This document shows positions 487 to 60,461 of a DNA stretch of 64,000 nucleotides, one piece after another. Position numbers and translations under genes: made by a program. The stretch lies in contig NC_088867.1 in NCBI RefSeq assembly GCF_032884065.1, positions 1,722,854-1,786,853 of the forward strand, read 5' to 3'. Every line of letters begins with the position of its first letter. Position 1 is the first letter of the stretch. Source of the stretch: Artemia franciscana. Its lineage: Eukaryota > Arthropoda > Branchiopoda > Anostraca > Artemiidae. Below the pieces are notes generated by a model. It did no database searches, had not been told where the DNA came from, and saw only the letters and a list, made by a program, of their open reading frames with translations.

Positions 487-630
487 CTGCACCCCGTAAG
501 GTAATTGTTAGGAGACAAGCTGGAACTGCCAAAACAATTGTAGCTGAAGTTGATAAGGATGTAGGTGTAAAACCAAAAGAAGGAATTAAAGATAAAGGCT
601 CAGAAGAAGGAGATGAACGATTCGGGATCG
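487..630 (+). CDS. gene A exon 2 (charged, Arg-Arg segment)
   Basis: 144 nt, exactly 48 codons, phase 1 at both ends. The acceptor is TTTTTTTTTAG and the donor CG|GTAAGT. It encodes a basic start with VRRQ followed by a Val/Lys/Glu-rich stretch. By position it matches gene B exon 13555-13710 and gene C exon 60348-60461. Confidence 0.7.
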
Positions 631-60100: not shown

Positions 60101-60461
60101 AGCCCTAATCCGTGTCTGTGTACTTCATCATTTCTGCCAGAGTAAATATATTCTATATCATCTAATTCCCTGCTTCTTACCCTAGGCTGCGAGTTTCCGA
60201 AACTCCTAATTAGGAATTTGGGAAATTTAGGCAACAAAATTCGCTTTTTTTCCCTAGCTTCTGTTTTCAGAGTTCTGGTAACTATTTTCCCGGTCAGTCT
60301 TTACCTACAGCTCATTACCCCAAATTGGCAAAGCACAATGCTCTTACCATATCTGACATCGATTTCTTCTGCTTCTTGTGGTTTTTCATTAGAAACTTTC
60401 TTTTCTTCGATCTTTTCATCAAATGTCACAACATCCCGTCTCGCTCTTTCATTTGGCTTTG
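41544..60461 (-). CDS. gene C: secreted Gly/Tyr-rich protein, 5'-partial, three visible exons
   Basis: Minus-strand exons 60461-60348, 52604-52527 and 42100-41544 (stop TAG at 41546-41544) join in frame with phase-1 GT..AG introns and give about 248 residues. The first visible exon carries [17 protein letters not shown]. The linker is [20 protein letters not shown]. The terminal exon has GYG/GGYG repeats ([16 protein letters not shown]), the 40-residue module [25 protein letters not shown], and a Lys/Glu-rich tail ending ESEKKKE. The signal-peptide exon should lie further along the minus-strand 5' side (above 60461), but none was identified to 64000. Module and architecture make it a paralogue of gene B, convergent with it. 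The role is unknown; an extracellular structural protein is plausible from composition. Confidence 0.78.
42360..43460 (-). pseudogene. non-LTR reverse transcriptase relic
   Basis: Minus-strand pieces in order: [20 protein letters not shown] (about 43415-43350), [16 protein letters not shown] (GxxQGT-type box), [20 protein letters not shown] (YVDD active site, about 43145-43080), [20 protein letters not shown] (about 42745) with [17 protein letters not shown], and a tail [13 protein letters not shown]. This order is that of RT to the C-terminal end in non-LTR elements. Frameshifts separate the pieces. It differs from the FADD-bearing element at 31380. Confidence 0.68.
43920..43988. repeat. (TA)n microsatellite, Helitron insertion target
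   Basis: Some 33 TA repeats of the outer Helitron tail, ending at the inner element's CTAG. The IYIYIY-type frames are by-products. Confidence 0.9.
44150..44283. repeat. (TA)n microsatellite
   Basis: More than 60 consecutive TA units inside the inner Helitron. Confidence 0.95.
44490..45010. repeat. duplicated block of about 260 bp (CCCGG minisatellite plus T-rich)
   Basis: Two near-identical copies. Each runs from GTCCCGGTCGTCATTTATAT CCCCCTGTTTCCCCC through GTCTGTATATACATTCGTTT into TTTTTAGT-rich sequence. Confidence 0.88.
45010..45840. repeat. TTTTTTAGTTTTT-type simple array
   Basis: About 0.8 kb of T runs punctuated by AG, ACC and GCC, with longer internal repeats such as GTAGTTTTTGCCTTTTTTTA. 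It lies within the inner Helitron, next to a CRE-bearing left end. Confidence 0.85.
46960..47343 (-). repeat. tandem Helitron left-end modules
   Basis: Three successive modules of about 145 bp (ending near 47043, 47200 and 47343 in plus coordinates). Each has CCCGG sites, GTAATTTCGTCAGTCGA, TGACGTCA or a variant, and GACAACTTATTTTTATATAT. Confidence 0.75.
47425..48200 (-). pseudogene. non-LTR retrotransposon endonuclease C-terminal relic
   Basis: The minus strand reads [17 protein letters not shown] (stop), [37 protein letters not shown] (stop), then [20 protein letters not shown] and [20 protein letters not shown], ending at TAG near 47762. STLDLIFTN and the following SDH-like AADHFVI are conserved C-terminal motifs of APE-type endonucleases. 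The 93-codon frame 47706-47425 is probably the endonuclease-RT linker. Confidence 0.6.
48200..49140. other. no recognised feature
   Basis: AT-rich, no coding frame over 60 codons, no repeat recognised. Confidence 0.5.
49140..49600 (+). pseudogene. non-LTR retrotransposon fragment, start of endonuclease
   Basis: An open frame to 49570 with a basic region ([20 protein letters not shown]), then [16 protein letters not shown]. The TNARSL.NKMDEL-like string is the usual start of the APE endonuclease in arthropod non-LTR elements. It stops soon after (NVFANLSL). The orientation is opposite to the 47425-48200 relic. Confidence 0.55.
49601..51220. other. no recognised feature
   Basis: Apart from a short GTTCGTTAC duplication near 50450-50480, reminiscent of the composite hairpin, nothing is recognised. 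The frame 50689-50910 has no splice or family support. Confidence 0.45.
51225..51780 (+). repeat. composite repeat, right-end variant
   Basis: Purine-rich GGAATTTTC/GGAAGG words, then an inverted-repeat module (51425-51780) with arms CACTCTCCACGCTAAAGTAT / GGCGTAAGGAGCGAGGTATT and CTTCAGAAG-like middle sequence: the second foldback variant. Confidence 0.65.
52527..52604 (-). CDS. gene C linker exon
   Basis: 78 nt, 26 codons, phase 1 at both ends (acceptor TATTCATAG, donor ACAG|GTAAAT on minus). It encodes [20 protein letters not shown] and YGLNT. Too short to show as a separate frame, but the splice sites and phase fit exactly. Confidence 0.75.
52726..53020. repeat. foldback module copy
   Basis: Arms from AACAAGTTTTTTTAAATGAA to TTCATTTAAAAAAAAATACA, each with ACGCCCCGCTCTTTACGCT or its complement. 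Confidence 0.85.
53360..54085 (-). repeat. composite repeat fragment, inverted
   Basis: From CTGGACGTTTTTGATTTAAT to CCAGTAACCATTACTATATG. It lacks the far half and the hairpin and is joined to the next foldback. Confidence 0.8.
54090..56323 (-). repeat. composite repeat, inverted copy with internal duplication
   Basis: The foldback (54090-54395) is followed by the body and the terminal hairpin ACAGTTCGT / ATGAACTGT (56302-56323). A segment of about 500 bp occurs twice in tandem (about 55260-55769 and 55770-56290), each starting near GACTTTGGGAAAAA..TGAGCGTGGGAG and ending with TTACTATTGAGC. Confidence 0.8.
57011..57473. mobile_element. non-autonomous TIR DNA transposon with 8-bp TSD
   Basis: CTAAGTTT occurs at 57011-57018 and 57466-57473, flanking a 447-bp element (57019-57465). 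Its ends are inverted repeats (AATGTTGGTATTACCGGAAC with ACAATTGTTTGGGGTCATGA and their complement near 57411-57462). The inverted similarity continues inward (AAAACTACCGCA / TGCGGTAGTTTT), and a second strong palindrome sits at the centre (57150-57225, CACATTAGGGGG / CCCCCTAATGTG). An 8-bp TSD is used by hAT, P and Merlin-type transposases. No transposase is encoded. Confidence 0.82.
57684..58620 (-). pseudogene. relic of an uncharacterised invertebrate family with an AFTxCxT motif
   Basis: Minus-strand order: SRTLSEEAD (about 58495), then 58449-58150 with [40 protein letters not shown] and [20 protein letters not shown], then 58100-57684 with [28 protein letters not shown] and [18 protein letters not shown] remember a family of multi-copy invertebrate hypothetical proteins with the order EEADTR, DTDVVVL, FGTGKNFRYIPVH, HAFTGCDT, LYDR, LFTQKGR..LPPT. 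This relic shows that order with changes. Stops lie between the frames. The family function is unknown to me; being repeated and broken, it is likely transposon-borne. Confidence 0.5.
58640..60240 (-). pseudogene. non-LTR retrotransposon remnant, endonuclease to RT tail with deletion
   Basis: The minus strand starts near 60190 with [20 protein letters not shown], then [16 protein letters not shown] and [20 protein letters not shown] (YxP and DFNA boxes of the APE endonuclease, 60024-59752). Then [20 protein letters not shown] (repeated in degenerate form at 59260-59520), an abrupt jump to [33 protein letters not shown] sequence, and a C-terminal tail to about 58650. The RT active-site region is missing between the two halves. 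Same lineage as 1880-2200 and 14945-15115. Confidence 0.68.
59230..59520. repeat. short tandem duplication in the endonuclease-RT linker
   Basis: Words TCTCATCCTGGAGTCTACCA, ACATCATAACTTTC and AATTTTAAACTCTCAAGCTT recur three times in about 290 bp: local duplication within the dead element. Confidence 0.75.
60348..60461 (-). CDS. gene C exon 2 (charged segment with Arg-Arg)
   Basis: 114 nt, 38 codons, phase 1 at both ends (acceptor CAATTTTAG, donor TATG|GTAAGA on minus). It encodes [20 protein letters not shown] and further Lys/Glu-rich residues to DVRY. It matches the charged exons of genes A and B. The plus-strand frame over it is its complement. Confidence 0.75.

Follow-up and report, generated by a model that had tools for sequence, protein, structure and literature searches.

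What do the small exons scattered over this part of the Artemia franciscana genome encode, and what might the products be for? The stretch analysed (the window, 64,000 nucleotides, C5:1722854-1786853, C5 being contig NC_088867.1) had earlier been read from its letters alone, and this sequence-only reading assembled three genes, A, B and C, and took them for paralogous secreted genes with symmetric phase-1 exons and no named family. As far as the sequence can be read, the locus is a tandem and inverted cluster of predicted secreted precursor genes with glycine-rich products. The genes appear to share one plan, consisting of a signal exon, an acidic or charged pro-exon with an Arg-Arg (RR) or Lys-Arg (KR) pair, a short linker exon and a terminal exon of glycine-rich repeats, which usually closes with a conserved module. 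This architecture, and the constraint on the family, are held with high confidence. The exons of the three genes are given below in window coordinates.

487..630, plus strand: gene A exon 2, charged pro-exon with RR (VIVRR followed by QAGT), phase 1-1
2649..2738, plus strand: gene A exon 3, linker with a paralog in the neighbouring gene D, phase 1-1
3532..3722, plus strand: gene A terminal exon, GQTGF repeats, ending in GRPVGSGFIGK and a stop, module absent
8996..9035, plus strand: gene B signal exon MKVLYLAILVTAV, phase-1 donor
13555..13710, plus strand: gene B exon 2, acidic pro-segment, RR, dipeptide ladder and KEEPKGKFFG, weak donor GTAGGC
20695..20757, plus strand: gene B exon 3, Ser/Thr-rich linker, phase 1-1
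27699..27952, plus strand: gene B terminal exon, FNRPG repeats, module and stop
60348..60461, minus strand: gene C exon 2, charged pro-exon with RR (RARR followed by DVVT), phase 1-1
52527..52604, minus strand: gene C exon 3, linker, phase 1-1
41544..42100, minus strand: gene C terminal exon, with GYG repeats, the module and, before the stop, a Lys/Glu tail

All seven junctions that had been listed for these genes (630/2649, 2738/3532, 9035/13555, 13710/20695 and 20757/27699 on the plus strand, 60348/52604 and 52527/42100 on the minus strand) are spliceable in phase 1, with GT..AG ends and frames open on either side. Eight phase-1 junctions had been claimed; the phase holds throughout, but the list accounts for seven. 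The acceptors at 487 and 60461 are also AG in phase 1, and at the terminal exon of gene A a second AG lies six bases downstream, both candidate acceptors being phase 1. Since the introns are in phase 1, the internal exons are interchangeable. The three repeat types named earlier, GQTGFG in A, FNRP in B and GGYG in C, were found again. Gene B is complete within the window, and its last intron also contains open frames at window 23547-25150 (minus strand) that we presume to be Helitron-like. The signal exon of gene A, MKTICLVALLLVAVAS, lies outside at window -1121 (C5:1721732), with a phase-1 donor and with TATA and TCAGT upstream. For gene C, no convincing signal exon was obtained from an 8-39-codon scan of window 60461 to 100000, a flank that is partly N, or from an 8-31-codon scan of a near-identical copy.

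Paralogy, which had been argued from exon architecture, is now supported by sequence. Genes B and C end in a common module of about 40 residues, GYQPGSG..GANV.F.N.GP.GRPAL.Y..PG.S..LR, at these positions:

27806..27949 (C5:1750659-1750802), plus strand: gene B conserved C-terminal module
41601..41735 (C5:1764454-1764588), minus strand: gene C conserved C-terminal module

The genome (1,270,528,402 bases in 6,468 contigs) was searched with best candidates only being reported, so that copy counts are lower bounds. At least 17 matches to the module were obtained at an expectation value (E) of up to 10, all 17 on C5 between 1,537,857 and 2,085,004, and 15 of them without stops. After near-identical copies (at least 96% around the module) were merged, 12 groups remained, one being a decayed pair, L035 and L036 (C5:1896486 and 1881350), in which each module copy carries two TAG stops. 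The sequence-only reading had overlooked this module, its 12 groups over 547 kb and its absence from gene A. Genes A and D both lack it and end in GSGFIGK. In an alignment of 10 members, made without L035/L036, the divergent member L038 and copies nearly identical to others, 18 of 49 positions are invariant. The ratio of nonsynonymous to synonymous divergence (dN/dS) was 0.02-0.25 in every pair of these 10 representatives with usable dS (26 of 45); the other 19 gave no dS, most likely because of saturation. In the signal exons dN was below dS in 6/6 pairs and in the pro-exons in 3/3; for the linker exons, where the misaligned pairs E-vs-G and E-vs-F (shifted by one codon) were excluded, the one usable pair, F1-F2, gave dN 0.40 and dS 0.67. 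These values indicate that the module evolves under constraint (purifying selection) and point to a real protein family, fairly old within the A. franciscana genome.

Searches with the second exons gave matches mostly on the same contig. For gene A all four matches were on C5; those beyond the exon itself had E from 2.5e-4 to 2.0, weak in two cases (0.02 and 2.0). A relative of this exon at C5:1617184 (E 2.5e-4) is located 6 kb upstream of the terminal exon at C5:1623578, which is on the same strand and bears the module together with GQTGF repeats; gene A is placed in the family on account of this neighbourhood and of the similarity of its repeats. All five matches to gene B exon 2 were on C5, those beyond the exon itself being weak (E 0.006-0.53). 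Two of the three matches to gene C exon 2 were on C5, the third being a 45% match (E 1.98) on C14.

The architecture is above chance, as exons of these kinds, with an unchanged splice phase, recur in neighbouring genes. Paralogs in the 100-kb flanks are listed with coordinates relative to the window, their exons being grouped into putative genes from order and strand.

-80924 to -46912, plus strand: gene F
-23458 to -37043, minus strand: gene D
-13994: H, a lone signal exon
118012 to 93482, minus strand: gene E
156266 to 143889, minus strand: gene G

When 29 exons of the eight genes A-H (H by its signal exon only) were scored by script, all but one of the 22 acceptors and all but one of the 23 donors came out as phase 1. 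Both deviations seem to be errors of the script, because gene C exon 2 has a nearer AG in phase 1 and gene D exon 2 has an equally scored GTAAGT in phase 1. No acceptor was assigned by the script to the terminal exon of gene A, a spurious donor was called in the middle exon of gene E, and in gene B exon 2 another phase-1 donor was picked, at 13680 (GTAAAG), which tied with that at 13710 (GTAGGC).

The promoters also fall into branches. In gene B the core promoter is placed as follows:

8944..8977, plus strand: gene B core promoter, with TATATAAA at 52 and TCAGT at 23 bases before the ATG and a spacing that agrees to within one base in paralogs E and F

In B, E and F the TCAGT, which we take to be an initiator-like element, precedes the ATG by 23 bases and the TATA does so by 50-53. 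In A, D and H the TCAGT stands at 32 bases, and the TATA of A and D at 60; no TATA was found for H by the pattern used. Identity over the first 100 upstream bases is 0.69-0.76 within branches and 0.58-0.60 between them, and 0.44-0.60 from 300 bases up. It could be argued that unrelated small frames were assembled by chance or that the genes are decayed, because two module copies (1881350 and 1896486) have stops, the terminal exon of F was not found, and A and D are without the module. Against this, exons, phases, promoters and dN/dS are conserved and the frames of the A, B and C exons are open, which makes such an explanation barely credible.

How such precursors might mature is suggested by the pro-segments. 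RR or KR is present in all eight pro-units read (genes A to G and L033, which is a copy of gene E at 96%), a count in which the decayed L035/L036 are not included; in genes E and F the dibasic site is in the middle exon and not in the short second exon. In gene B the RR heads a ladder of X-Ala/X-Pro dipeptides, which had been overlooked before and which points to a specific processing route:

13635..13676, plus strand: gene B RR and EA-SP-EA-DP-EA-DP ladder (predicted dibasic cleavage site and X-Ala/X-Pro dipeptides)

The dibasic site is followed by 6 dipeptides in B, 8 in E, 4 in F, 6 in G and 10 in L033, with Ala or Pro as second residue in 34/34 (24/24 without L033), and the ladders end at VG, AE or SE, which a dipeptidyl peptidase is predicted not to remove. 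In 20,000 shuffles of the ladder residues the register was kept 31 times for B, 3 for E, 273 for F and 28 for G, a lenient control since the ladder ends were defined by the register itself. The drifted residues (S, I, F) all stand in the first position of a dipeptide, which is more telling than the shuffles. For the ladder-bearing genes only, this processing route is considered probable, with predicted N-termini after trimming of VGKEEPKGKFFG in gene B and AEKEEPKEKFFG in gene E. Gene E has a middle exon (101948 on, minus strand) with a module followed by KR and the ladder; this exon ends in FFG at the weak donor GTAATT, and a linker and a second module exon come after it. Spliced through, gene E could yield a chain with two modules, and unspliced it would possibly stop after NYSLPKN.

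The terminal exons differ in repeat type, length and charge. The repeats in the place preceding the module are GQTGF in A, D, L027 and L028, FNRPG in B and G, GYG in C and NGLQSGFG in L038. The longest member seen, L037 (C5:2083385-2086504), is a 589-residue frame in which a long Gly/Gln/Glu run of EQGGQGGY type ends in the module. Chain charge is +1.8 for A, +1.9 for D and +0.5 for C; the predicted mature chain of gene B (116 residues, cysteine-free) has a charge of +11 and an isoelectric point (pI) of 10.8. Terminal exons reach +5.8 in E and +7.9 in G, and -28.9 in the 548-residue exon of L037. Some members are present in near-identical copies. Window 57206-64000, with part of gene C, has an inverted copy at C5:1980055-1986853 (L040; 98.97% identity, 6.8 kb), and three gene C terminal exons (C5:1764454, 2002605 and 2022810) share 99.7-99.8% identity over 3.1 kb. 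Exon 2 of gene C was found in two places. These copies are either recent duplications or uncollapsed haplotypes, and the inverted 99%-identical duplication may inflate the copy number.

With chances we put at about even, the genes would be lineage-specific secreted precursors that give glycine-rich chains, an extracellular or gland material being likelier than antimicrobial peptides; a structural role, as cuticle, brood pouch or cyst shell material, is rated slightly below that. In the proposed mechanism, the signal peptide would be removed and a furin/Kex2-like protease would cut at RR/KR, after which, in the B/E/F/G branch, a dipeptidyl peptidase would strip the X-Ala/X-Pro ladder and halt at VG, AE or SE. 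The acidic pro-part would keep the chain soluble and inactive until secretion, and the released glycine-rich chain would assemble extracellularly via the conserved module, with material properties set by the repeat region. A structural role is favoured because the short end module is conserved next to repeat regions of widely differing sequence, length and charge, because dibasic-processed shell peptides offer a precedent in the same genus (the accessible text of PMC3108945 presumes Kex2-type cleavage for the cyst-shell peptides SGEG2a/2b), and, weakly, because no kappa-B-like site occurs in six promoters. These promoters (6 x 400 bases) gave 0 such sites, where 500 random sets had 7.65 on average, a weak comparison that is uninformative on gland versus immune control as the promoters are A+T-rich.

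Several observations weigh against a processed, self-assembling material of this kind. In the 100-kb flanks no terminal exon was found for gene F and no signal exon for gene G. The alternative picks of the script mean that the donors after 'FFG' (GTAGGC, GTAATT) are weak, and in genes E and G the frame reads on to a stop past the weak donor, so these exons could be terminal. L038, outside the alignment and the dN/dS set, retains 12 of the 18 invariant module positions. AlphaFold2 gave no fold for the terminal exon of gene B (mean predicted local distance difference test score 48.8, 2-sequence alignment), so that assembly through the module is unsupported by structure. Genes A, D and C are without a ladder, having 1, 1 and 0 removable dipeptides, and a single processing route therefore does not fit all members. 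The mature chain of gene B is strongly cationic. Dipeptide-ladder precursors are known as a mark of antimicrobial or similar bioactive peptides. They are presented in this way, and not as structural, in the available part of PMC3415428.

The last points lead to the explanation that the genes encode precursors of glycine-rich antimicrobial peptides, with RR/KR cleavage and dipeptide trimming releasing cationic antibacterial peptides. In precursor logic and gene B charge it is the better match: ant hymenoptaecin, according to the part of PMC3415428 available, has an EAEP spacer with RR and a three-step maturation, and the pI of 10.8, the charge of +11 and the lack of cysteine in mature gene B, together with the charges of the E and G terminal exons (+5.8/+7.9), fit as well. 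Gene E is readable as two modules split by KR and an EAEP ladder, as in multipeptide precursors, and a glycine-rich antimicrobial peptide, AfRgly1, has been reported in A. franciscana itself (PMC12387859, accessible text). However, the gene C chain is near neutral (+0.5) and the L037 chain strongly acidic (-28.9), the module is under apparent purifying selection, and the kappa-B result, for what an A+T-rich set can say, gives no sign of immune control. The 21-residue published AfRgly1 peptide maps at 100% to C18:7036022, on another chromosome, and in the window and 45 loci the two published AfRgly1 peptides reach at best 8/21 and 7/16 identities. In the accessible text of PMC12387859, 1 of 16 short glycine-rich A. 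franciscana candidates rose after Vibrio challenge, a set that may or may not include genes of the cluster. An antimicrobial function for the cluster is judged possible but unlikely. It is likewise a tentative suggestion, which we would not expect to hold as a whole, that an antimicrobial-type ladder was recruited, or kept from an antimicrobial ancestor, as a maturation switch and that the module is a new assembly domain; this grading covers the whole reading of a lineage-specific, self-assembling glycine-rich extracellular material with interchangeable phase-1 exons.

A material of the latter kind could already be known, as the Artemia shell-gland cyst-shell peptides SGEG1 (EU683079) and SGEG2 (GU945200). 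Genus and secretion agree, SGEG2 is dibasic-processed, and no database homologs are reported for these peptides in the accessible text of PMC3108945. Nevertheless, the two published SGEG2 antibody peptides (A. parthenogenetica) have at best 6/16 and 7/14 identities in the window and the loci examined, which looks like chance, and identity with SGEG is considered improbable. Among the matches listed in the Artemia literature on secreted, glycine-rich, antimicrobial and shell-gland proteins, the relevant ones were SGEG and AfRgly1, neither of which was matched to the cluster. The module strings were absent from the literature text searched, whose scope did not extend to subscription papers and supplementary tables, and none of the terms looked for occurs in the single-nucleus atlas PMC11392275.

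Database comparison agrees with the earlier statement that no named family is recognizable, as no Pfam family was reached at its cut-off. The 10 modules had no Pfam match at E up to 10, and the four longer proteins had only two keratin-type matches, below cut-off, in one of the four. Chitin_bind_4, which we take to be the Pfam family of arthropod chitin-binding cuticle proteins, was not among the matches at E up to 10 in the sequences scanned. NCBIfam, a library built for bacteria and archaea, gave no match. The viral and prokaryote collections gave no relative, their 4 and 60 pattern matches being unconfirmed by tblastn. A profile search of the PDB returned two matches at E=1, both to one plant protein, which were taken as chance. 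What the sequence-only reading had observed was confirmed, and its interpretation was partly supported, in paralogy, predicted secretion, phase-1 symmetry, the assignment to a crustacean and the lack of a named family.

Some other features of the sequence were recorded. A tRNA-Lys (TTT) gene is located at window 36174-36248 (plus strand), between genes B and C. On the plus strand, window 44001-48000 is strongly T-biased (AT skew -0.36), and it includes a low-complexity frame at 44472-45104. Across many contigs, the mitochondrial one included, 75 COX1-like matches were found, many with several invertebrate-code TGA codons; they reflect either mitochondrial DNA transferred to the nucleus on a large scale or sequence carried over in the assembly. 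On the 15,822-base contig C6468, COX1 is close to the start. A tRNA-Leu(UUR)-like sequence can be read by eye between COI and COII. Comparisons with Hemocyanin_M and with the PDB placed the source of the DNA among arthropods, and no more finely than that.

Brine-shrimp cysts and secretions endure extreme salt and drying, and to our knowledge only a small number of the proteins in them have been identified. The present family, which is clustered and duplicating and has a maturation code that can be read, supplies definite candidates and cleavage sites. From it one would also learn to what extent precursor processing of the antimicrobial type occurs outside insects, and how modular phase-1 exons allow repeat types to be exchanged with a single end module retained.

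Among known systems, silk-like proteins combine divergent repeats with a conserved end domain, and the cluster resembles them in its divergent repeat region and conserved C-terminal module; unlike them, its module has only about 40 residues and no confident predicted structure. AfRgly1 is likewise secreted, glycine-rich and cationic and comes from A. franciscana, but its locus is on C18 and not C5, and its published peptides are absent from the window and the 45 loci. The cyst-shell matrix peptides SGEG2a/2b share secretion, presumed Kex2-type dibasic cleavage, the lack of known homologs and the genus, whereas helices and sheets are predicted for SGEG2 (PMC3108945, accessible text) and its published peptides were not found in the loci examined. 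In hymenoptaecin/apidaecin-type precursors of Hymenoptera the differences are that the Artemia module is without a Pfam match (a comparison with Pfam and not a direct alignment to those peptides), that several Artemia members are ladderless, and that the Artemia linker and repeat exons are set apart by phase-1 introns; the ant hymenoptaecin gene has a single intron in the available part of PMC3415428. What the cluster has in common with this type, and with yeast alpha-factor processing, is the order of signal, pro-part, RR/KR and E/D-A/P dipeptides. RR/KR with an X-Ala/X-Pro spacer is present in B, E, F, G and L033 and absent from A, C and D, and gene E adds the possible repetition of modules within one chain.

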